DNA of 32,041 nucleotides. Origin: Prochlorococcus sp. AG-388-E21. GTDB lineage: Bacteria > Cyanobacteriota > Cyanobacteriia > PCC-6307 > Cyanobiaceae. Below are positions 2,997-19,641 of this stretch, in pieces. Under the pieces are notes generated by a model, which saw only the letters and a list, made by a program, of their open reading frames with translations, made no database searches and was not told the DNA's origin. Numbering within the stretch: position 1 is the stretch's first letter; each line of letters begins with the position of its first letter. A program made the position numbers and the translations under genes. Where the stretch lies: positions 1 to 32,041 of the forward strand of contig QCGO01000011.1 in the NCBI GenBank assembly GCA_003279855.1, in the 5' to 3' direction.

Positions 2997-3265
2997 TTAA
3001 GTTATTTATAATAAATAACAATAAAAATAAGCTATTAAATAATTAAAAAATATAATTAGTCTAGCAACCTAGAAGTATAAATAAGCACTTAAGTTTTCGA
3101 TAATTATAGTAATCTAGAAATCTATACTTGAATATAACCACTGGCTTCTATAGCTTTTCATTATTATATTTTAAGAGCATATCCTCATATATAAAAGAAG
3201 GAGGTTCAGAAGATTGATATAAGGGGGTAAGTATATTTACTTTCTAAGTGAAAAGATATAATTTT

Positions 3266-5176
3266 ATGAAAATTAGGTCGGGTAAATTTAAAGCAAAAAA
3301 AAGATTACTCCCCCTAATTTTATTGTTCGGTTTATCGACAGTACGAACCTATGCAGACATAAGTATAAATACTTTTCAAAATTGGAATGGTTCTACTTTT
3401 GGAAATAGCTGGGGACCTGATGGATCTAATGCATATGGACAATCTTTTACAACTTCCTCAAACCTACAACTAACTGATTTAACTTTTTATATAAAATCAA
3501 GTGATAGCTTTAGCTTTAAAGCATATATTTATTCTTTTGATGCTACTACAAGAAAGATTTCAGGTAGTCCTTTATATGAAACTAATGCACAAAGTTTTGT
3601 AGGTAATGGTAGTTTCCAAGCTGTCACAGTAGATAGTAATGATGCAGTTACTAATGAGACCCTTTCATCTGGAAATTTTGCAGCATTTTATTCAGTAAAT
3701 GAACCCGGAGGAAGTTACTCACCTAATCCAGCTGGGAATCCCATAGTTGCAAATGATTCTGGTGGCTCTCAATGGGGGAAGAATGCAAGTGATGTATATT
3801 CCGGAGGTACCTCTCTTTATTATCATACTGATGCTTTTAATAATGGTGCCTGGACCAATTGGGGTAATGATTTAGCTTTTATATTAAATCTTTCTACTCC
3901 TGATTCTGGAGATGCTACTTATTCAATAACAGGTCAAACATATGCAGGAAAGACCTTAACTGCTGGCGTATCTGCCAATGATCCAGACGGGAACGGATCA
4001 GTAACTTCTTATACCTGGCAATCCTCTTCTGACGGGAGTACTTGGAATAATATTACTGGTGCAACGAGTTCTGCTTTTACTGTAACTTCTTCAAAAGAAG
4101 GAAAATATATCAGAGTTACAGTTGCTTATACAGATGGCGGTGGGACAAGTGAATCAGTAACCTCTTCATCAATAACAATTAGCCAGCTACACACTGAGTG
4201 GATCCAACCTTATGCCGCGATACAGAATATTGGATTGGTATCAATAAAAAATAATAGGGATTTGGTTTTAGCAAAAGCAGGTGAATGTAATAACTATGGC
4301 TGGGTAATTGGAGATACTGATTATTGTGTCTATACCAATGCGAACAATACAACTGCTTCTGTTAATGGCAATAGCAGTTATGGAGGTTATGATTATGCAA
4401 AATTTAATACCTCAATAAATTTAGAGAAAACAATTAATGATAGATGGAAAGCTGGTGTTGCATATGGCGTTGGTTCTTCTAATTTAGATAATTACAACTT
4501 CTCCAGTACAACAGCTAGTTTGAGTTCCACTAACACTCACTATTCTATTTATGGAGTTAAGAAAGTAAGTGATAAATTCACCTTAAAAGGAATGATTGGG
4601 GGATCTGATTTTGATTACAAAGGTAATAGAAATTATTCAACTACATCGGCAACATCTGCCTACGATACTGATGGATATACTGCGGAGATAAATGGTATCT
4701 GGGATATAAAAAAGAATATAAAAAATATGAAAACCCCAATCCGTTTACAACCAATGGTAGGAGTTACTTATGCCGCCCATACTCAAGATGGATTCAGTGA
4801 ATCGGGTAGTGGAGATTTAATTACCATTGATCCAAATCAGGCGGAATCTCTTCTCTTAAAAACAGGAATTAGTGTAGACAAGCAAATCCCTATGGAGAGT
4901 GGCAAGTGGTTATTAGTTCCATCTATTGCTCTGAATTACGAAATGGACCCCTATGCGGATGAAGATCATAGAAGTATTAAAGGTGGATTAACAGAAAGCT
5001 CAACAGCACATAATAAAGTTTCTTCTAAAACACTTGGTCAACATAATGGCTCTATTAAAGTAGGAGCTGATTTTATCTGTACTAAAGATTTTATGTTTAA
5101 TTTAAATGCAGAATATGGCTTAGCAGAAGGAGGAGATGAACATTCCTATGGTGGTGGTTTTAGGTGGCAGTTTTAA
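3266..5176 (+). CDS. Autotransporter-like surface protein with Ig-like domain
   Basis: A large secreted protein (642 residues from GTG 3248, 636 from ATG 3266; residue numbers here use the longer form). Basic N-terminus and hydrophobic core (19-31), with probable signal cleavage after TYA (36). Residues 37-215 form a Gly/Ser/Asn-rich beta domain resembling the choice-of-anchor/lectin-like modules of surface proteins (NAYGQSFTTSSNLQLTDLTF). Residues 222-311 are a bacterial Ig-like repeat (SYTWQSSSDGSTWNNI, EGKYIRVTVAYTD). Residues 315-642 have alternating aromatic/hydrophobic strands and end in GGGFRWQF, with the terminal Phe typical of outer-membrane beta-barrels, as in type V autotransporters. 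Two Cys (in GECNN and DYCVY) could form a loop disulfide. Likely displayed on the outer membrane and involved in adhesion or surface variation. It is the main cargo of element B. The barrel assignment is by pattern only. Confidence 0.7.
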   Translation: MKIRSGKFKAKKRLLPLILLFGLSTVRTYADISINTFQNWNGSTFGNSWGPDGSNAYGQSFTTSSNLQLTDLTFYIKSSDSFSFKAYIYSFDATTRKISGSPLYETNAQSFVGNGSFQAVTVDSNDAVTNETLSSGNFAAFYSVNEPGGSYSPNPAGNPIVANDSGGSQWGKNASDVYSGGTSLYYHTDAFNNGAWTNWGNDLAFILNLSTPDSGDATYSITGQTYAGKTLTAGVSANDPDGNGSVTSYTWQSSSDGSTWNNITGATSSAFTVTSSKEGKYIRVTVAYTDGGGTSESVTSSSITISQLHTEWIQPYAAIQNIGLVSIKNNRDLVLAKAGECNNYGWVIGDTDYCVYTNANNTTASVNGNSSYGGYDYAKFNTSINLEKTINDRWKAGVAYGVGSSNLDNYNFSSTTASLSSTNTHYSIYGVKKVSDKFTLKGMIGGSDFDYKGNRNYSTTSATSAYDTDGYTAEINGIWDIKKNIKNMKTPIRLQPMVGVTYAAHTQDGFSESGSGDLITIDPNQAESLLLKTGISVDKQIPMESGKWLLVPSIALNYEMDPYADEDHRSIKGGLTESSTAHNKVSSKTLGQHNGSIKVGADFICTKDFMFNLNAEYGLAEGGDEHSYGGGFRWQF

Positions 5177-5257: not shown

Positions 5258-5280
5258 TTTCTCATTTGAGATTGCAGACA

Positions 5281-5309
5281 ATAAAAAAGAGAGCTTGGGA
5301 AAACTCTCT
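5281..5309 (-). terminator. tRNA-Pro terminator, displaced copy
   Basis: Stem AGAGAG/CTCTCT (5288-5293 with 5304-5309) and an A-run at 5283-5288 that reads as U-rich on the minus strand. Same position relative to the tRNA 3' end as at 2336 and 7826. Confidence 0.7.
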
Positions 5310-5330
5310 ATATGACTTGGTTTTTAAGAG

Positions 5331-5378
5331 TCGGGGCGACAGGATTCGAACCTGCGACCTAGTGCTCCCAAAGCACCC
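5331..5378 (-). repeat. tRNA-Pro(TGG) 3' fragment, attachment site (middle)
   Basis: 48 bp are identical to the 3' part of the intact tRNA-Pro gene, from the discriminator base to the anticodon stem; the match ends at CACCC, followed by AGTACGC instead of GCGCTAC. The adjoining CCA-encoding bases are not kept (GAG replaces TGG). It is the boundary between elements B and A. It also creates a false 63-codon plus-strand frame. Confidence 0.9.
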
Positions 5379-6613: not shown

Positions 6614-7693
6614 TTGAAAAAGTTTTTAAGAAATCTTTTTTCTAGATATATTAAATTAAAGCCAGAAAAAAAAATAAAGAAAAAAAGAATTAAAAAGATA
6701 AGTATTCAAGAGATAAAAAAGCAAATGAAGAAAATAAGAACCTCAATGAAAAATCCTAAGAGTATAAGTCAATTAACAAAGGATATTAATTCTCATGAAA
6801 ATTGGAGACTAAAAGATGAAAATGAATCATCTCAAAAAATAATTGATAAATATAAAAAAGAAATCTATCAATTCAAGGAAAATGTTGGGCTTAAAGATAC
6901 TCTTGATTTAAATCAAGTCAATAAACGAACAATATGGAAAGAGGTCAGAAATAATATTAGAAAAATTAATTCAATTAAGGCGTTTGATTTGCCCAAAGAT
7001 TTAACTGTTGATGAAGCAAAAAAAGAAGTAAAAAAAATAATGGAATTTAAATTTAAGAAAATAATTGATGAAACATTAGATAAAAATAAATTTAATCTTG
7101 TTAAAGCAAAAAATAAATTAGTAAAGGTTGATTCATATGGAAATAAAAATTTAACTAAATGGGAAGATGAACGCTTTTATTTTTTTAAAACAACGATTTT
7201 GCCAAAGTTAAAATCAGCTGATAGGAATGTTTTAGGAACATTTAAATTGCCATTTAACCTTGCTAAGCACTTTAGATATGCGGTAAAGAAAATAGAAGTC
7301 TTAACGAAGGAAATTATTGATAAAAATATTTCAGAATGGGAATCTACCGAACGAGATGCCCCCGCTGGAATCAGGTATGAAAATATTTGCAAGAAAATCC
7401 TCGAGAAAGAAGGCTGGAAAGTTGAAACCACCCCTGTCACTGGAGATCAAGGTGTGGATCTAATTGGGTATATTGAAGATTTCAAAGTATGTATTCAATG
7501 CAAGGATTTTTCTAATGCTGTTGGTAACAAGGCATTGCAAGAAGTAATTGCAGGCAAAATCCATTATCAGGGAACTCATTCTGTTGTGGTAGCTAAATCA
7601 GGATTTACGAAAAAAGCTCATGAATTAGCAATTACTGCGAAAGTGATTCTTATAAGCGAAATAGAGCTTGAAAATTTAGAAAATTTGTTATGA
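6614..7693 (+). CDS. Mrr-type restriction endonuclease
   Basis: 359 residues. Residues 250-359 form an Mrr-like catalytic domain of the PD-(D/E)xK superfamily: GIRYENICKKILEKEGW (conserved Glu256), VTGDQGVDLIG (catalytic Asp282), IQCKDF (Q-x-K, Lys297), VGNKALQEVIAGK and SGFTKKAHELA. All expected catalytic residues are present. The N-terminal 245 residues are Lys-rich, mostly helical and unrecognised; they probably carry target recognition or oligomerisation. Mrr-family enzymes cleave modified or foreign DNA (type IV restriction) or act in phage defence. The TTG start at 6614 gives a basic MKKFLRNLFSRY opening; no ATG is close downstream. No methyltransferase is nearby, consistent with a modification-dependent or orphan nuclease. 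Cargo of element A, followed 50 bp later by repeat R copy 4. Confidence 0.8.
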   Translation: MKKFLRNLFSRYIKLKPEKKIKKKRIKKISIQEIKKQMKKIRTSMKNPKSISQLTKDINSHENWRLKDENESSQKIIDKYKKEIYQFKENVGLKDTLDLNQVNKRTIWKEVRNNIRKINSIKAFDLPKDLTVDEAKKEVKKIMEFKFKKIIDETLDKNKFNLVKAKNKLVKVDSYGNKNLTKWEDERFYFFKTTILPKLKSADRNVLGTFKLPFNLAKHFRYAVKKIEVLTKEIIDKNISEWESTERDAPAGIRYENICKKILEKEGWKVETTPVTGDQGVDLIGYIEDFKVCIQCKDFSNAVGNKALQEVIAGKIHYQGTHSVVVAKSGFTKKAHELAITAKVILISEIELENLENLL

Positions 7694-7742
7694 AGCTTGT
7701 TTCCTAGGATTTATTTAAGAGCAATCACCTTAGAGGTTATCT

Positions 7743-7800
7743 AGCGATTAAGTTGGCAGGGTTATGCAAGGTATAGCAGATAATCGCTATATAATCGCTA
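7743..7800. repeat. Island repeat R, copy 4
   Basis: AGCGATTA (7743-7750), TTATGCAAGG and TATAGCAGA direct repeats, TAATCGCT at 7781-7788 and 7792-7799. Closest in layout to copy 1, including the inverted AGCGATTA half. It lies 77 bp from the 3' end of the intact tRNA-Pro gene and marks the right end of element A. Confidence 0.7.
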
Positions 7801-7825
7801 AGTCTTATTTTTCTTATAGTTGGCA

Positions 7826-7853
7826 ATAAAAAAGAGAGTCTGGGAAACTCTCT
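7826..7853 (-). terminator. Terminator of tRNA-Pro
   Basis: Stem AGAGAGT/ACTCTCT (7833-7839 with 7847-7853), loop CTGGGAA, followed on the minus strand by a U-rich run. It starts about 20 bp after the tRNA 3' end and is the functional copy of the three related hairpins in this region. Confidence 0.8.
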
Positions 7854-7873
7854 TGTATGACTTGGTTTTTAAA

Positions 7874-7950
7874 TGGTCGGGGCGACAGGATTCGAACCTG
7901 CGACCTAGTGCTCCCAAAGCACCCGCGCTACCAAGCTGCGCCACGCCCCG
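7874..7950 (-). tRNA. tRNA-Pro (anticodon TGG)
   Basis: Complete cloverleaf on the minus strand: acceptor stem CGGGGCG/CGCCCCG, D arm with GGCGCAGCTTGGTAGCGC, anticodon loop TTTGGGA, and T arm GGTTCGAATCC. The 3' CCA is encoded (7874-7876), unlike the tRNA-Lys in this window. Without CCA the gene spans 7877-7950 (74 nt). Its 3' 46-48 bases plus terminator recur at 5331 and 2386, so the gene is the integration target of elements A and B; its current 3' half was probably supplied by element A. Confidence 0.97.
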
Positions 7951-14318: not shown

Positions 14319-14406
14319 TAGATTTAAAATTTAAATTTTTTATATTTTCATTGAATGTTTAAATTTATAAACTGGCACATAACTTTTAAAAAGTAATAAC
14401 CGACAC

Positions 14407-14436
14407 TTGATTTCGTATATAAAAATGTAGTAATAT
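14407..14436 (+). promoter_or_regulatory. Promoter of first porin gene
   Basis: TTGATT (14407-14412), 18-bp spacer, TAATAT (14431-14436). A transcript starting near 14443 would exclude the upstream GTG at 14440, supporting ATG 14470 as the true start. Confidence 0.5.
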
Positions 14437-14469
14437 TGGGTGTCCTTTAAATTTCGTGTGAGGAAATTT

Positions 14470-15606
14470 ATGAAGCTTTTCAAAAGCTTGCTTGTAGCTC
14501 CTGCAACATTAGGCCTTTTGGCACCAATGTCTGTAACAGCTAATGAGCTCAATATTAATGAAATTTCTGGTTATTCTTCTTCAGAAGAAATTCAGAACAT
14601 CAGTGAATTTTACCCAGAACAACTTGCTGTAACAAACAGCCGTGTTGATGGAATAGAAGCAAGATTGAATGATTTTGAAGCTGGTAGTTTCTCAGAAACA
14701 ACAACAGCATCATTCTCTGCAGATTTTGCTATCGGTGCAGTTGACGGTTTAACTGGTAACGAAGCTGTAACAGCTGGTTATTCATTCCAAATTGATCTAA
14801 ACACTAGTTTTACTGGTGAAGATTCACTAGACGTTTCACTTGACGCTGGTAATGCAGACGCAGGAAGTTTAGATGATTTAGATCTAAATGATGCTGGAGA
14901 TGGTCTAAAAGTTGATGGTGTTGCATACACCTTTCCTCTAGGCGATAAGACAACTGTTTTTGTTGGTGACAGCATGGACGGAAGTACTCTTTACAGCACT
15001 GCTTGTGTTTATGGTGGTCAAACTATTCAGCTAGATGATTGTGGTAACTCAGGTGCTGCATTTGCTGCTGGCTTAGGAACTGCAGCTGGAGCTAGTTATG
15101 ACTTCGGTAATGGTTTTACTGCAGCAGTAGGCTATGAAGGTCAAGGTGCTTCTACTAGTGGTTTACTTACTAAAGAAGGTACTGATGTTTTCGGTGGACA
15201 GGTAACTTACACTGGAGATTCATACGGCGTATCTGTAACTTATTCAGATTATGAAGGTACAAACGATACAGCTTACACAGCATTTAATGCTTACTACACT
15301 CCAGAAAGTGCTGGATCATTACCATCTATAAGTGCTGGTTATGAAGTTGGTGCAATTGATGATTCAAGTGATTCATCTCTATGGATGGTAGGTCTACAAT
15401 GGGATGAAGTTGGCGCAGGAACACTTGGTTTGGCATTAGGTACTGATGGTCACATAGTGGATGAAGCAACCTCTTACCATGTATATGAAGCTTTCTACAG
15501 CTACCCAATGAATGACGGAATGACTATTACTCCAGTTGTTTACTACAAAGAAACAGCTTCAACAGATCAAACAGGTGTAATGGTTAAGACATCTTTCAGC
15601 TTCTAA
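14470..15606 (+). CDS. som: Som-type outer-membrane porin, copy 1
   Basis: 378 residues from ATG 14470, preceded by GAGGAAA. Signal peptide MKLFKSLLVAPATLGLLAPM with cleavage after VTA (24). Residues 25-60 (ELNINEISGYSSSEEIQN) resemble the beginning of the SLH region of cyanobacterial Som/OprB-like porins, but the full SLH domain is absent. The rest is an acidic, Gly/Ser/Asp-rich series of amphipathic strands, ending in GVMVKTSFSF with the terminal Phe of outer-membrane barrels. One Cys pair (ACVYGG, DDCGN) could make a loop disulfide. It probably forms a general diffusion or nutrient channel in the outer membrane. Prochlorococcus genomes are known to carry duplicated som genes; the symbol is by resemblance. 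Own promoter and own strong terminator, so likely monocistronic and highly expressed. Confidence 0.8.
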   Translation: MKLFKSLLVAPATLGLLAPMSVTANELNINEISGYSSSEEIQNISEFYPEQLAVTNSRVDGIEARLNDFEAGSFSETTTASFSADFAIGAVDGLTGNEAVTAGYSFQIDLNTSFTGEDSLDVSLDAGNADAGSLDDLDLNDAGDGLKVDGVAYTFPLGDKTTVFVGDSMDGSTLYSTACVYGGQTIQLDDCGNSGAAFAAGLGTAAGASYDFGNGFTAAVGYEGQGASTSGLLTKEGTDVFGGQVTYTGDSYGVSVTYSDYEGTNDTAYTAFNAYYTPESAGSLPSISAGYEVGAIDDSSDSSLWMVGLQWDEVGAGTLGLALGTDGHIVDEATSYHVYEAFYSYPMNDGMTITPVVYYKETASTDQTGVMVKTSFSF

Positions 15607-15643
15607 ACTTTTAATTAAGATTAGAAAATCCTACACATTAAAT

Positions 15644-15676
15644 AAAGGTCTACTTTTTTGTAGACCTTTTTTTTTT
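15644..15676 (+). terminator. Strong terminator after porin copy 1
   Basis: AAAGGTCTAC-TTTTTT-GTAGACCTTT hairpin followed by a ten-T run. Confidence 0.93.
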
Positions 15677-15708
15677 ATCTGTGCCTGTCTACAATTTGGC
15701 CTACTACC

Positions 15709-15737
15709 TTAACTTCCTCTTTATTTTTTGTTAATAT
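15709..15737 (+). promoter_or_regulatory. Promoter of second porin gene
   Basis: TTAACT (15709-15714), 17-bp spacer, TAATAT (15732-15737), unrelated in its surroundings to the first porin's promoter. It lies after the terminator of copy 1, so copy 2 can be transcribed independently. Confidence 0.5.
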
Positions 15738-15765
15738 AGGAAAAATACTCTGTGTGAGGGAATTT

Positions 15766-16902
15766 ATGAAGCTTTTCAAAAGCTTGCTTGTAGCTCCTGC
15801 AACATTAGGCCTTTTGGCACCAATGTCTGTAACAGCTAATGAGCTCAATATTAATGAAATTTCTGGTTATTCTTCTTCAGAAGAAATTCAGAACATTAGT
15901 GAATTTTACCCAGAACAACTTGCTGTAACAAACAGCCGTGTTGATGGAATAGAAGCAAGATTGAATGATTTTGAAGCTGGTAGTTTCTCAGAAACAACAA
16001 CAGCATCATTCTCTGCAGATTTTGCTATCGGTGCAGTTGACGGTTTAACTGGTAACGAAGCTGTAACAGCTGGTTATTCATTCCAAATTGATCTAAACAC
16101 TAGTTTTACTGGTGAAGATTCACTAGACGTTTCACTTGACGCTGGTAATGCAGACGCAGGAAGTTTAGATGATTTAGATCTAAATGATGCTGGAGATGGT
16201 CTAAAAGTTGATGGTGTTGCATACACCTTTCCTCTAGGCGATAAGACAACTGTTTTTGTTGGTGACAGCATGGACGGAAGTACTCTTTACAGCACTGCTT
16301 GTGTTTATGGTGGTCAAACTATTCAGCTAGATGATTGTGGTAACTCAGGTGCTGCATTTGCTGCTGGCTTAGGAACTGCAGCTGGAGCTAGTTATGACTT
16401 CGGTAATGGTTTTACTGCAGCAGTAGGCTATGAAGGTCAAGGTGCTTCTACTAGTGGTTTACTTACTAAAGAAGGTACTGATGTTTTCGGTGGACAGGTA
16501 ACTTACACTGGAGATTCATACGGCGTATCTGTAACTTATTCAGATTATGAAGGTACAAACGATACAGCTTACACAGCATTTAATGCTTACTACACTCCAG
16601 AAAGTGCTGGATCATTACCATCTATAAGTGCTGGTTATGAAGTTGGTGCAATTGATGATTCAAGTGATTCATCTCTATGGATGGTAGGTCTACAATGGGA
16701 TGAAGTTGGCGCAGGAACACTTGGTTTGGCATTAGGTACTGATGGTCACATAGTGGATGAAGCAACCTCTTACCATGTATATGAAGCTTTCTACAGCTAC
16801 CCAATGAATGACGGAATGACTATTACTCCAGTTGTTTACTACAAAGAAACAGCTTCAACAGATCAAACAGGTGTAATGGTTAAGACATCTTTCAGCTTCT
16901 AA
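15766..16902 (+). CDS. som: Som-type outer-membrane porin, copy 2
   Basis: 378 residues from ATG 15766 (an upstream GTG at 15754 would add MREF and is less likely). The predicted protein is identical to that of the gene at 14470, with the same signal peptide, truncated SLH-like start, barrel strands and terminal Phe. Only a silent base change separates the coding sequences. Because the product is the same, the second copy must act through dosage or separate regulation: the promoters differ. Such identity means very recent duplication or continuing gene conversion. In related genomes the two som copies usually differ, so this pair may have been homogenised; assembly collapse or duplication should be excluded. 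Confidence 0.8.
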   Translation: MKLFKSLLVAPATLGLLAPMSVTANELNINEISGYSSSEEIQNISEFYPEQLAVTNSRVDGIEARLNDFEAGSFSETTTASFSADFAIGAVDGLTGNEAVTAGYSFQIDLNTSFTGEDSLDVSLDAGNADAGSLDDLDLNDAGDGLKVDGVAYTFPLGDKTTVFVGDSMDGSTLYSTACVYGGQTIQLDDCGNSGAAFAAGLGTAAGASYDFGNGFTAAVGYEGQGASTSGLLTKEGTDVFGGQVTYTGDSYGVSVTYSDYEGTNDTAYTAFNAYYTPESAGSLPSISAGYEVGAIDDSSDSSLWMVGLQWDEVGAGTLGLALGTDGHIVDEATSYHVYEAFYSYPMNDGMTITPVVYYKETASTDQTGVMVKTSFSF

Positions 16903-16939
16903 ACTTTTAATTAAGATTAGAAAATCCTACACATTAAAT

Positions 16940-16970
16940 AAAGGTCTACTTTTTTGTAGACCTTTTTTTT
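16940..16970 (+). terminator. Strong terminator after porin copy 2
   Basis: Same AAAGGTCTAC/GTAGACCTTT hairpin as copy 1, with an eight-T run instead of ten. Confidence 0.93.
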
Positions 16971-17649: not shown

Positions 17650-19641
17650 TTAAGTGGCCAAGTTACGATATTTTTCATTTTGTGTGATCAGATCAATCGC
17701 GGGTTGAAGTAATTTTTTATAATTTTTCCATGATCCAATTGAATTTGAATTAATAGGTGAACGAACTTGCACTACGCTTGCAGTAGTAACTGAACGTTTA
17801 TTGAGATGGGGATTTAGGTAAATATCATCCCATGTCCAACCTAAAAAACTAATTAAAGACTTAATTTCTCTCTTAGGATTGTTCACTAATAAATCGTAAT
17901 CTAAGTTATATATCATTGATGGAAATTCCGCCTTGTATTTATTCATTATGTATTCTTGATCTAGATATACTTTTGCGCAATCAATAAGAGAAGAAGAATA
18001 TTTATTTCTTTTTGTGAAATGTGTTCTATAAATTGAAAGTATATTATCTAGAGGATTTCTAAATGAATGAATAATTTTTACATTAGGTATTTGACTAGCA
18101 ATAATACCTGAATATTGATAATTATATAACCATTTATTAGTAGTAGTTTTCAATTTTTTCTTATTATTTTTTACTTTTTGCCAATATAAGTCTGCCAATG
18201 ATGAACCTTTAGAATGTTTACTTTGTTCTTCAAAAGATTCTTCTAGAATATTAATTTCTTCTAAATCCTGCACATTGGAATTCATTGAAAGGATGGATTC
18301 AATTAATGTAGATCCACTTCTAGGCATACCAACAATGAAAATACTTTGAGGATATTTTTCTTTTCCTTTTTCATAGATTCTGGTTTTCTTAGTTTCAATG
18401 AATAAATTTTTGGACTTTTCGATTAGTTCATCAGATTGAGATGGTGTAAGTGCAACTTTTAATTCATTAGCTTGCTTGAGATTTTTGGCACTTTCTCTAT
18501 AATTTTTATCTTTATGCAAAATATTTGCCCTAGCAAAGTAGATATTAATCTGATCTTTTTGTGAACTATTTTTTATAATTTTCTCAGAAAAGAGTTTATC
18601 CTTCCATTTTGTAATTTGATTTGGGGCGTTTAAAATAGATAACGAATAGTATGCTTTAAAAAGTTTAGGATTTAACTCAGTAGCTTTGAGAAGTGATAAT
18701 TCTGCCTCTTTGAATTGCCCAAGACCTATTAAAATAGATCCCATAGTTGAATGTGATTCTGGGAAGTTAGGGTTAAGTTGAATAGCTTTGAGAATAGAAG
18801 ATTCTGCCTCTTTCAATTTGCCGAGATTTTTTAATAATTTACCAAGATTTAAATGTGCTTCAGTGAACTTAGGATTAAGTTGAATTGCTTTTCTATATGA
18901 GATTTCTGCTTCTTTAAAATTACCAAGATTTTGTAGAATGTTACCAAGATTTAAATAAGCTTCAGCGAAATTGGGATTAAGTCGAATTGCTTTTTGAGTA
19001 GACGATTCTGCATTATGAAAATCCTCAAGCTCTAAAAGGATATTACCAAGATTTAAATGAGCTTCGGCGAAATTTGGATTAAGTTTTATAGCTTTGAGAA
19101 TGGAAGATTCTGCCTCTTTTAATTTGCCTTGAGATCTTAAAATATTGCTAAGATTTAAATAAGCTTCAGCGAAATTGGGATTAAGTTGAATTGCTTTGCG
19201 GTATGAGATTTCTGCTTCTTTAAATTTACCGAGAATTCGTAAGATATTACCAAGATTTAAATGTCCTTCTATTAAGTTAGGGTTTATTTGGGTTACTTTA
19301 CGATATGAGATTTCTGCTTCTTTAAATTTACCGAGAATTCGTAAGATATTACCAAGATTTAAATGTCCTTCTATTAAGTTAGGGTTTATTTGGGTTACTT
19401 TACGATATGAGATTTCTGCTTCTTTAAATTTGCCTTCACTTTGCAGTATTATCGCAAAATTTGAAAAAATTTTGTGGTCATTGAATCCTTTATCAATACA
19501 ATATTGATAATATTTTTTTGCTTCTTTAATTTTACCTTGTGAATGTAAATTAATTGCTAAATTAATGATCTGAATTCTCTGAGAACTAGTCTTCTCAATA
19601 TTTTTTTTAATTTGATGGGGATCTATACCAAATCCTTTCAT
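17650..19641 (-). CDS. TPR-repeat sulfotransferase
   Basis: 663 residues. Residues 25-335 are about nine TPR units of 34 residues, built on A-x-L-NLGNIL-x-x-x-GKFKEAEISYRKAIQLNPNF, with neighbours nearly identical. Residues 340-430 are a helical linker. Residues 432-663 are a sulfotransferase domain: the 5'-phosphosulfate loop is FIVGMPRSGSTLIES (436-449) and the 3'-phosphate region is KIIHSFRNPLDNILSIYRTH. Such proteins transfer sulfate from PAPS to a tyrosine, sugar or other hydroxyl acceptor; the TPR part probably binds the acceptor. The acceptor is unknown. Starts at ATG 19641. Units at 73-106 and 107-140 are identical. Isolated on the minus strand between hli and tRNA-Lys. Confidence 0.88.
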   Translation of the reverse strand: MKGFGIDPHQIKKNIEKTSSQRIQIINLAINLHSQGKIKEAKKYYQYCIDKGFNDHKIFSNFAIILQSEGKFKEAEISYRKVTQINPNLIEGHLNLGNILRILGKFKEAEISYRKVTQINPNLIEGHLNLGNILRILGKFKEAEISYRKAIQLNPNFAEAYLNLSNILRSQGKLKEAESSILKAIKLNPNFAEAHLNLGNILLELEDFHNAESSTQKAIRLNPNFAEAYLNLGNILQNLGNFKEAEISYRKAIQLNPKFTEAHLNLGKLLKNLGKLKEAESSILKAIQLNPNFPESHSTMGSILIGLGQFKEAELSLLKATELNPKLFKAYYSLSILNAPNQITKWKDKLFSEKIIKNSSQKDQINIYFARANILHKDKNYRESAKNLKQANELKVALTPSQSDELIEKSKNLFIETKKTRIYEKGKEKYPQSIFIVGMPRSGSTLIESILSMNSNVQDLEEINILEESFEEQSKHSKGSSLADLYWQKVKNNKKKLKTTTNKWLYNYQYSGIIASQIPNVKIIHSFRNPLDNILSIYRTHFTKRNKYSSSLIDCAKVYLDQEYIMNKYKAEFPSMIYNLDYDLLVNNPKREIKSLISFLGWTWDDIYLNPHLNKRSVTTASVVQVRSPINSNSIGSWKNYKKLLQPAIDLITQNEKYRNLAT
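19202..19405 (-). repeat. Two identical 102-bp TPR-coding units
   Basis: Units 19202-19303 and 19304-19405 are identical base for base, including third codon positions, and a third begins identically at 19406 for about 26 bp. Indicates a recent in-frame duplication by slippage or unequal recombination. Confidence 0.93.

Follow-up and report, generated by a model that had tools for sequence, protein, structure and literature searches.

Concerted evolution of the barrel part of a tandem Som-type porin pair in Prochlorococcus

Twin porin genes and the segment that is kept alike

The window considered here, i.e., the whole stretch of 32,041 nucleotides that forms contig 11 (QCGO01000011.1) of the 1.66-Mb, 17-contig genome of Prochlorococcus sp. 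AG-388-E21, presumably a member of the high-light group, carries two Som-type porin genes arranged head to tail, whose open reading frames (ORFs; 14470-15606 and 15766-16902) encode the same 378-amino-acid protein. When the window is compared with itself by BLASTN, positions 14456-15674 match positions 15752-16970 over 1219 bp with 2 mismatches and 0 gaps; one mismatch (14464/15760, A/G) lies in the leader, immediately 3' of the motif GTGTGAGG, and the other (14601/15897, C/T) is silent. A preliminary description of this DNA made from the letters alone had likewise given one leader and one silent change. That description was also right that the promoters of the two copies differ, as promoter 1 shows no relation to the sequence preceding gene 2 (a local score of 13, where the 99% shuffle levels are 24 and 26). 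Its statement that the edges of identity match the transcribed unit is only roughly right: the 3' edge is the end of the T-run of the terminator, but the 5' edge is GTGTGAGG, 14 nt before the ATG and within the presumed 5' untranslated region (UTR) rather than at the border between promoter and transcript. Shared family alone does not make the copies alike, since the best segments of the three other porins found elsewhere in this genome are only 39-44% identical.

For comparison, 74 loci (window included) were scanned, and those with at least two porin ORFs of more than 300 amino acids on one strand were kept, leaving, once the duplicates L104 and L110 were dropped, 36 distinct loci with 37 adjacent pairs. 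The same tandem pair occupies the same locus in most relatives examined. The near-identical tract starts -8 to +16 nt from the codons of the FS.TT motif in 30 of the 37 pairs and ends 44-76 nt past the stop codon, at or near the terminator, in 28, while upstream of FS.TT the two genes carry two different N-terminal domains (NTDs), each of which can be recognised in other genomes (class 1 and class 2). Exceptions at the start are the window and L115, where the tract begins further upstream, and L048 and L042, where it begins later; no long tract is present in L099, L043, and the second pair of L103. At the other end, the tract stops near the stop codon in L100 and L064 and reaches 104-129 nt in L103 (first pair), L048, and L136. 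An AlphaFold model of the protein (from 49 relatives; mean pLDDT 78.5) has 16 strands, with residues 1-74 at low confidence and the first barrel strand at residues 77-92, so that the tract border, lying at this strand in the model, is a domain boundary.

The two parts of the genes have different histories. In the midpoint-rooted barrel tree, the copies are sisters within the genome in 35 of 36 loci (the exception being L099), whereas the likewise rooted NTD tree is split by position with a support of 0.997 and only 2 of 72 sequences are misplaced, namely the second copies of the window and of L115; NTD copies are sisters in 2 of 36 loci, the window among them. The median nucleotide identity of the barrels is 1.000 within genomes (at least 0.99 in 31 of 36) versus 0.592 between them, and the same contrast is seen at four-fold degenerate sites (1.000 versus 0.565) and in the 60-nt 3' UTR (1.000 versus 0.583, with the two copies of a genome reaching 0.95 or more in 30 of 36 loci). 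Since four-fold sites and 3' UTRs follow the barrel, selection on the protein is ruled out as the whole cause, and gene conversion explains what it leaves over. The greater identity within than between genomes, the likeness of silent and non-coding sites, and flanks orthologous by position are the marks expected of concerted evolution, as far as sequence comparison can tell. The comparison of pairs within and between strains, proposed in the preliminary description, thus favours concerted evolution, and the ongoing gene conversion that it offered as one explanation is supported by barrel copies that pair by genome and by the agreement of silent and 3' UTR sites. The window is the rarer long-tract case, in which the tract overwrote the NTD of gene 2 up to the Yfr1 target in the leader.

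Promoters, fold, and surroundings of the pair

The promoters, like the NTDs, sort by position, promoter 1 clearly and promoter 2 weakly. Promoter 1 of the window matches 29 of 35 gene-1 promoters of other strains and 0 of 35 gene-2 promoters, while the spacer before gene 2 scores above the 99% shuffle level with 7 of 35 gene-2 promoters (28 do not reach it) and with 0 of 35 gene-1 promoters. The two positions are, therefore, old, and the duplication predates this strain. The element GTAN8TAC, which we take to be the NtcA consensus, stands 75-78 nt before the ATG in 34 of 36 gene-1 promoters and in 0 of 36 gene-2 promoters; the window has GTAN8CAC. As a side observation made post hoc, the only two gene-1 promoters that lack the element, those of the window (14404-14406) and L115, both read CAC for TAC, and these are the two loci with an overwritten gene-2 NTD.

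The motif GTGTGAGG, complementary to the motif of the small RNAs (sRNAs) Yfr1 and Yfr10, is present in 36 of 36 gene-1 leaders and 35 of 36 gene-2 leaders. The window genome encodes one Yfr1 and three Yfr10; the best duplexes predicted between Yfr1 and either leader (-26.0 and -21.0 kcal/mol, computed without a shuffled control) lie over GTGTGAGG, whereas two of the three Yfr10 are predicted, equally without such a control, to form their best duplex with the gene-2 leader mainly through another part of the sRNA. By leader complementarity, both window genes are thus putative Yfr1 targets. Papers on strain MED4 describe two porins that arose by gene duplication and are both Yfr1 targets (PMC6778093, PMC3898218), name som-1/2 as PMM1119 and PMM1121, and list PMM1119 and "PMM112" (so printed) as highly expressed porins inducible by phosphorus limitation (PMC3898218). 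Elsewhere, at G000:C4:162358-162368 (L139), a Yfr1/Yfr10 motif lies about 85 nt past the end of another porin match; it has no Rfam match at gathering scores and may belong to an sRNA derived from a 3' UTR.

A search of the model with Foldseek retrieved general porins, with Omp32 as the best match (E 2.8e-10, TM 0.55/0.62), which is consistent with a predicted 16-strand general porin fold. No sequence relative was found in the PDB at E values up to 1, OprB (Pfam PF04966) scored 19.7 bits, under its curated cut-off of 22.9, and no Pfam match to an SLH domain appeared in the window protein at E values up to 0.001. Computed from 47 of the 49 aligned rows and with the side of the loops assumed, variability averages 1.92 bits in the presumed outer loops (103 residues), against 1.29 in the strands (168 residues) and 0.96 in the inner turns (30 residues). 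More variable outer loops are usual for porins, and the loop variation is not counted as evidence of selection by phages. In IMG/VR, only remote matches to the barrel were found (23-25% identical, in 6 contigs). The Synechococcus cyanophage S-SRM01 (MW015081.1, 185213-186388), present as two records, carries a gene annotated as a porin whose product is a remote relative (24% identical over 90% of the query). With only these remote relatives, a phage origin of the barrel was set aside.

The surroundings of the pair are conserved as well. Downstream lie a trmFO-like gene in 32 of 35 loci, a 35-amino-acid ORF in 33 of 35, which seems to us to resemble high-light-inducible proteins, and a 46-amino-acid ORF in 33 of 35; upstream, a 56-amino-acid ORF is found in 32 of 35. 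The spacer between the porins measures 126-173 bp in 22 of the 37 adjacent pairs and 2023-2133 bp in the other 15, where it holds an ORF of 605-635 amino acids (12 cases) or 364-365 amino acids (3 cases). All 15 of these ORFs (e.g., in L048, L100, and L101) are related, at 32-43% identity, to the TPR-sulfotransferase gene that lies beside the pair in the window (Table 1), and their position between the porins or beside them suggests a linked surface modification. In the single-contig genome L098, one gene only is present, with a promoter and an NTD of the gene-1 type joined to downstream sequence of the gene-2 type; judging from this arrangement, it may have arisen by deletion between the two barrels or may be an original single gene. 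L132 has the same arrangement, but comes from a 50-contig draft.

Table 1. Features of the porin pair and its neighbour in the window
Feature	Position	Strand	Basis
NtcA-like half-site pair of promoter 1, GTA-N8-CAC, imperfect	14393..14406	+	resemblance to the NtcA consensus
TAATAT, probable -10 box of gene 1	14431..14436	+	probable; read from the sequence
Gene-1 leader motif GTGTGAGG, complementary to the Yfr1/Yfr10 motif; identity begins exactly here	14456..14463	+	
Signal peptide and NTD of gene 1, class 1, with a linker that looks coiled-coil-like by eye	14470..14688	+	
16-strand beta-barrel domain of gene 1 (predicted), FS.TT codons to stop	14689..15606	+	
Terminator hairpin and T-run of gene 1	15647..15674	+	read from the sequence
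77-bp spacer with promoter 2; resembles gene-2 promoters of some other strains	15675..15751	+	
TAATAT, probable -10 box of gene 2	15732..15737	+	probable; read from the sequence
GTGTGAGG, putative Yfr1/Yfr10 target in the gene-2 leader; 5' edge of identity	15752..15759	+	
Signal peptide and NTD of gene 2, of class 1 here through overwriting by gene 1; 34 of 36 loci have class 2 at this position	15766..15984	+	
Beta-barrel domain of gene 2, identical to that of gene 1	15985..16902	+	
Terminator hairpin and T-run of gene 2; 3' edge of identity	16943..16970	+	
TPR-sulfotransferase; relatives lie between both porins in 15 of 15 long spacers	17650..19641	-	

The TPR part of the sulfotransferase gene contains internal repeats (18681-19431) that are about 75-83% alike. 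Further away, the window holds three repeats (2252-2431, 5276-5378, and 7742-7924) that are 83-92% alike, one of which overlaps tRNA-Pro (7874-7950, minus strand); they flank an autotransporter gene (3248-5176) and a gene for an Mrr-type nuclease (6614-7693) and resemble the attachment-site repeats of mobile islands.

Exchange between strains and the sister genera

Flank genes were compared at 28 loci with a nearly full-length neighbour (27 for tree splits). The similarity of the trmFO-like neighbour is tracked by NTD 1 (r 0.74) and promoter 1 (0.57), less by the two barrels (0.40 and 0.45), and not by NTD 2 (0.02) or promoter 2 (-0.13). Of the 13 strong splits in the flank-gene tree, 9 conflict with a strong split in the barrel tree and 3 recur there. 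Loci with nearly the same neighbour can thus hold very different barrels: the window and L100 are 0.938 identical in the trmFO-like gene and 0.43 in the barrels, and L113 and L133 are 0.968 identical in the former and 0.47 in the latter, in both copies. L100, which we take to be MED4 and its pair to be PMM1119/PMM1121, is 0.81-0.94 identical to L112/L113 from barrel 1 through barrel 2, with 3' UTR 1, the spacer gene, promoter 2, and NTD 2 included, whereas its NTD 1 is 0.80 identical to the window and L102 and 0.61-0.65 to L112/L113; judged from these values, L100 carries an imported block. In L099 one copy only differs, barrel 1 being 0.62 and barrel 2 being 0.30 identical to the window. On such comparisons, barrels are exchanged horizontally, and both copies are usually changed together.

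A mirror image is frequent in four sister genera of the same family, where the NTD is often homogenised and the barrels have diverged, with the same junction between them. The 15 genomes compared, a non-random set, were picked for neighbouring porin matches (14 from a listing, plus L093, labelled Vulcanococcus), and 18 pairs were counted, the pairs of L189, L192, and L079 being left out for a misplaced start, as was L194, a repeat of L093. The copies form an exclusive clade for the NTD in 13 of 15 genomes and for the barrel in 4 of 15; four-fold identity within and between genomes is 0.953 versus 0.580 in the NTD and 0.534 versus 0.473 in the barrel. In 12 of the 18 pairs an NTD identity of at least 0.90 goes together with a barrel identity below 0.80, and in 11 the tract ends 17-29 nt into the barrel. 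This pattern does not extend to L183, L184, and L185, alike or nearly so in both parts, to L191 and the first pair of L190, alike in neither, or to L193, with tract ends at +49 and -79. In the second pair of L190, promoter and 3' UTR are shared as well (0.89 each), and this pair may be a recent duplication. The Som porins of the sister genera share with the window protein an MKLF-type signal, the FS.TT start of the barrel, and a similar linker before it, but their tandem copies, unlike the window pair, keep an SLH-like N-terminus, so named by its motif, and often homogenise it. As the reversed pattern shows, conservation and diversification can each fall to either half of the same gene.

Origin and meaning of the likeness

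With high confidence, the two Som-type porin genes can be regarded as an old tandem pair whose likeness is maintained by gene conversion, in this genus usually of the barrel and the terminator as a unit. Homologous recombination between the direct repeats, presumably conversion of the RecA type, would keep the pair alike over the barrel-coding region and terminator; each position normally retains an NTD and a promoter of its own. In the window, a longer tract would have copied the NTD and leader of gene 1 over gene 2, halting at the Yfr1 target by the start codon and leaving one product expressed from two promoters under the same sRNA. Barrel alleles also enter by horizontal exchange, usually with a joint change of both copies. 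Several observations weigh against this account. The barrels are clearly diverged in L099 (0.455), L043 (0.705), L199 (0.69), L200 (0.65), and the second pair of L103, and less alike than elsewhere in L042 (0.893), L064 (0.963), and L048 (0.975), so homogenisation is not obligatory; a significant resemblance to the window spacer is limited to the 7 of 35 gene-2 promoters mentioned above; in L100, identity would equally result if the whole block had been imported with two like barrels in it; and many loci come from short-read or single-cell assemblies, in which a collapsed graph edge can make copies identical.

The last point leads to the very improbable case of an assembly artefact, in which one gene, or two differing genes, were merged into identical copies. 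The window genome is indeed a draft, its copies form an exact repeat of about 1.07 kb in which collapsed differences could be hidden, so a few extra ones have possibly been lost, and in 10 of the 12 genomes of the genus in 2-4 contigs (G004, G024, G039, G042, G060, G113, G120, G123, G155, and G188) a porin match is cut at most 85 nt from a contig end; of the other two, G104 has a shortened porin match and only G182 shows none. The window copies, however, differ at two sites and have unrelated flanks, and 14 of the 33 tracts longer than 800 nt carry at least one difference, the remainder none. As collapse is possible in short-read data, the ten single-contig genomes of the genus provide cleaner evidence: L098 has one gene and G332 broken matches only, and of the eight with an intact pair six are homogenised in the barrel and have different N-termini, with 5 differences in 906 nt (L100), 2 in 1039 (L101), 1 in 1044 (L195), or zero (L196, L197, and L198) in the tract. 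L099 and L199 are not homogenised, nor is L200, a 5-contig draft. The preliminary description had also offered recent duplication. Such an event in this strain, in tandem and with a new promoter inserted before the second copy, would fit the near-identity over 1219 bp with leader and terminator included, yet it is hardly credible and was rejected on the two old positions seen in the NTD tree and the promoters: relatives carry the pair in the same place, a separate NTD class marks gene 2 in 34 of 36 loci, and the spacer resembles some gene-2 promoters of other strains and no gene-1 promoter, its score against promoter 1, below the shuffle level, giving no sign of derivation from the sequence beside the original copy.

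It is unlikely, too, that identity is kept by the import of whole two-gene blocks from donors and not by conversion within the genome. Such import is clear in L100, whose block resembles L112/L113 while NTD 1 does not, but as a general cause it is unsupported by the coupling between barrel similarity and NTD 2 in the 28 genomes, which is not significant (r 0.12, p 0.057 for barrel 1; r 0.08, p 0.195 for barrel 2) and implies that blocks are usually not moved whole; moreover, the likeness of the donors' own copies would itself have to be explained, and in the window the spacer between the overwritten ends is old. As to function, two promoters on one product could provide, as the preliminary description suggested, dosage control of a dominant outer-membrane protein and candidate phage receptor, a rather doubtful proposal read from the arrangement of the genes. 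The distinct promoters, with an NtcA-like site in promoter 1 only, and the Yfr1 target in both leaders agree with it, as do the phosphorus-inducible expression (PMC3898218) and Yfr1 regulation (PMC6778093) given for the MED4 porins; the N-termini, however, differ by class in 34 of 36 loci, so the dosage of a single protein is not the general reason. A tentative possibility, less likely than not, is that the FS.TT junction splits Som porins into two freely recombining modules, whereby in Prochlorococcus a barrel imported from another lineage is copied to the second gene in a serotype-like, one-step switch of the dominant surface pore that escapes phages or grazers dependent on the previous type. 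The genus of the window would then homogenise the barrel and keep two anchors and two promoters, and the sister genera would often homogenise the SLH anchor and keep two barrels.

Conversion between tandem porin genes, the explanation preferred here, has a counterpart in babA/babB and homA/homB of Helicobacter pylori, for which concerted evolution with gene conversion is reported, the 3' segments being alike within a strain and the 5' segments keeping their own identity (PMC3960876). Unlike in H. pylori, the border in Prochlorococcus coincides with a domain boundary, the first barrel strand, in 30 of 37 pairs of the genus; the tract usually takes in the terminator, the tandem genes have promoters of their own, and in sister genera the opposite side is often the homogenised one. 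Segment-limited concerted evolution of outer-membrane paralogs is thus known from Helicobacter, and what is new is its strikingly regular form. The fold matches structures of Neisseria PorB in Foldseek, and for this 16-strand porin evidence of horizontal transfer is reported (PMC10327514). The passages available from the papers on som-1/som-2 of MED4 mention the duplication and, within those passages, neither homogenisation nor NTD classes nor barrel exchange, and among the matches listed in a search of open-licence PMC titles and abstract beginnings on Prochlorococcus, Synechococcus Som, and cyanobacterial SLH porins, the pattern is not described. To our knowledge, no second, co-evolving copy of porB exists in Neisseria.

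The pair behaves as a natural gene-conversion system with its border at a structural domain junction, present in many strains and, therefore, measurable, in a porin pair of an abundant ocean phototroph which the literature passages at hand present only as an sRNA-controlled duplication. This system can account for the breaks that assemblies of this genus show at the pair; it also means that a short read from the barrel cannot be traced to either gene. The two genes give one pore type from two promoters, usually with two N-termini, and we infer, with less assurance than for the agent of conversion, that a cell gains by having a single type of pore or surface, which it can switch in the two genes together. 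With this system, one can test directly if both copies of a duplicated surface receptor have to stay alike for a strain to escape a phage. The pore part is nearly identical within a cell and very different between strains, which could let the surface of these bacteria change in one step.

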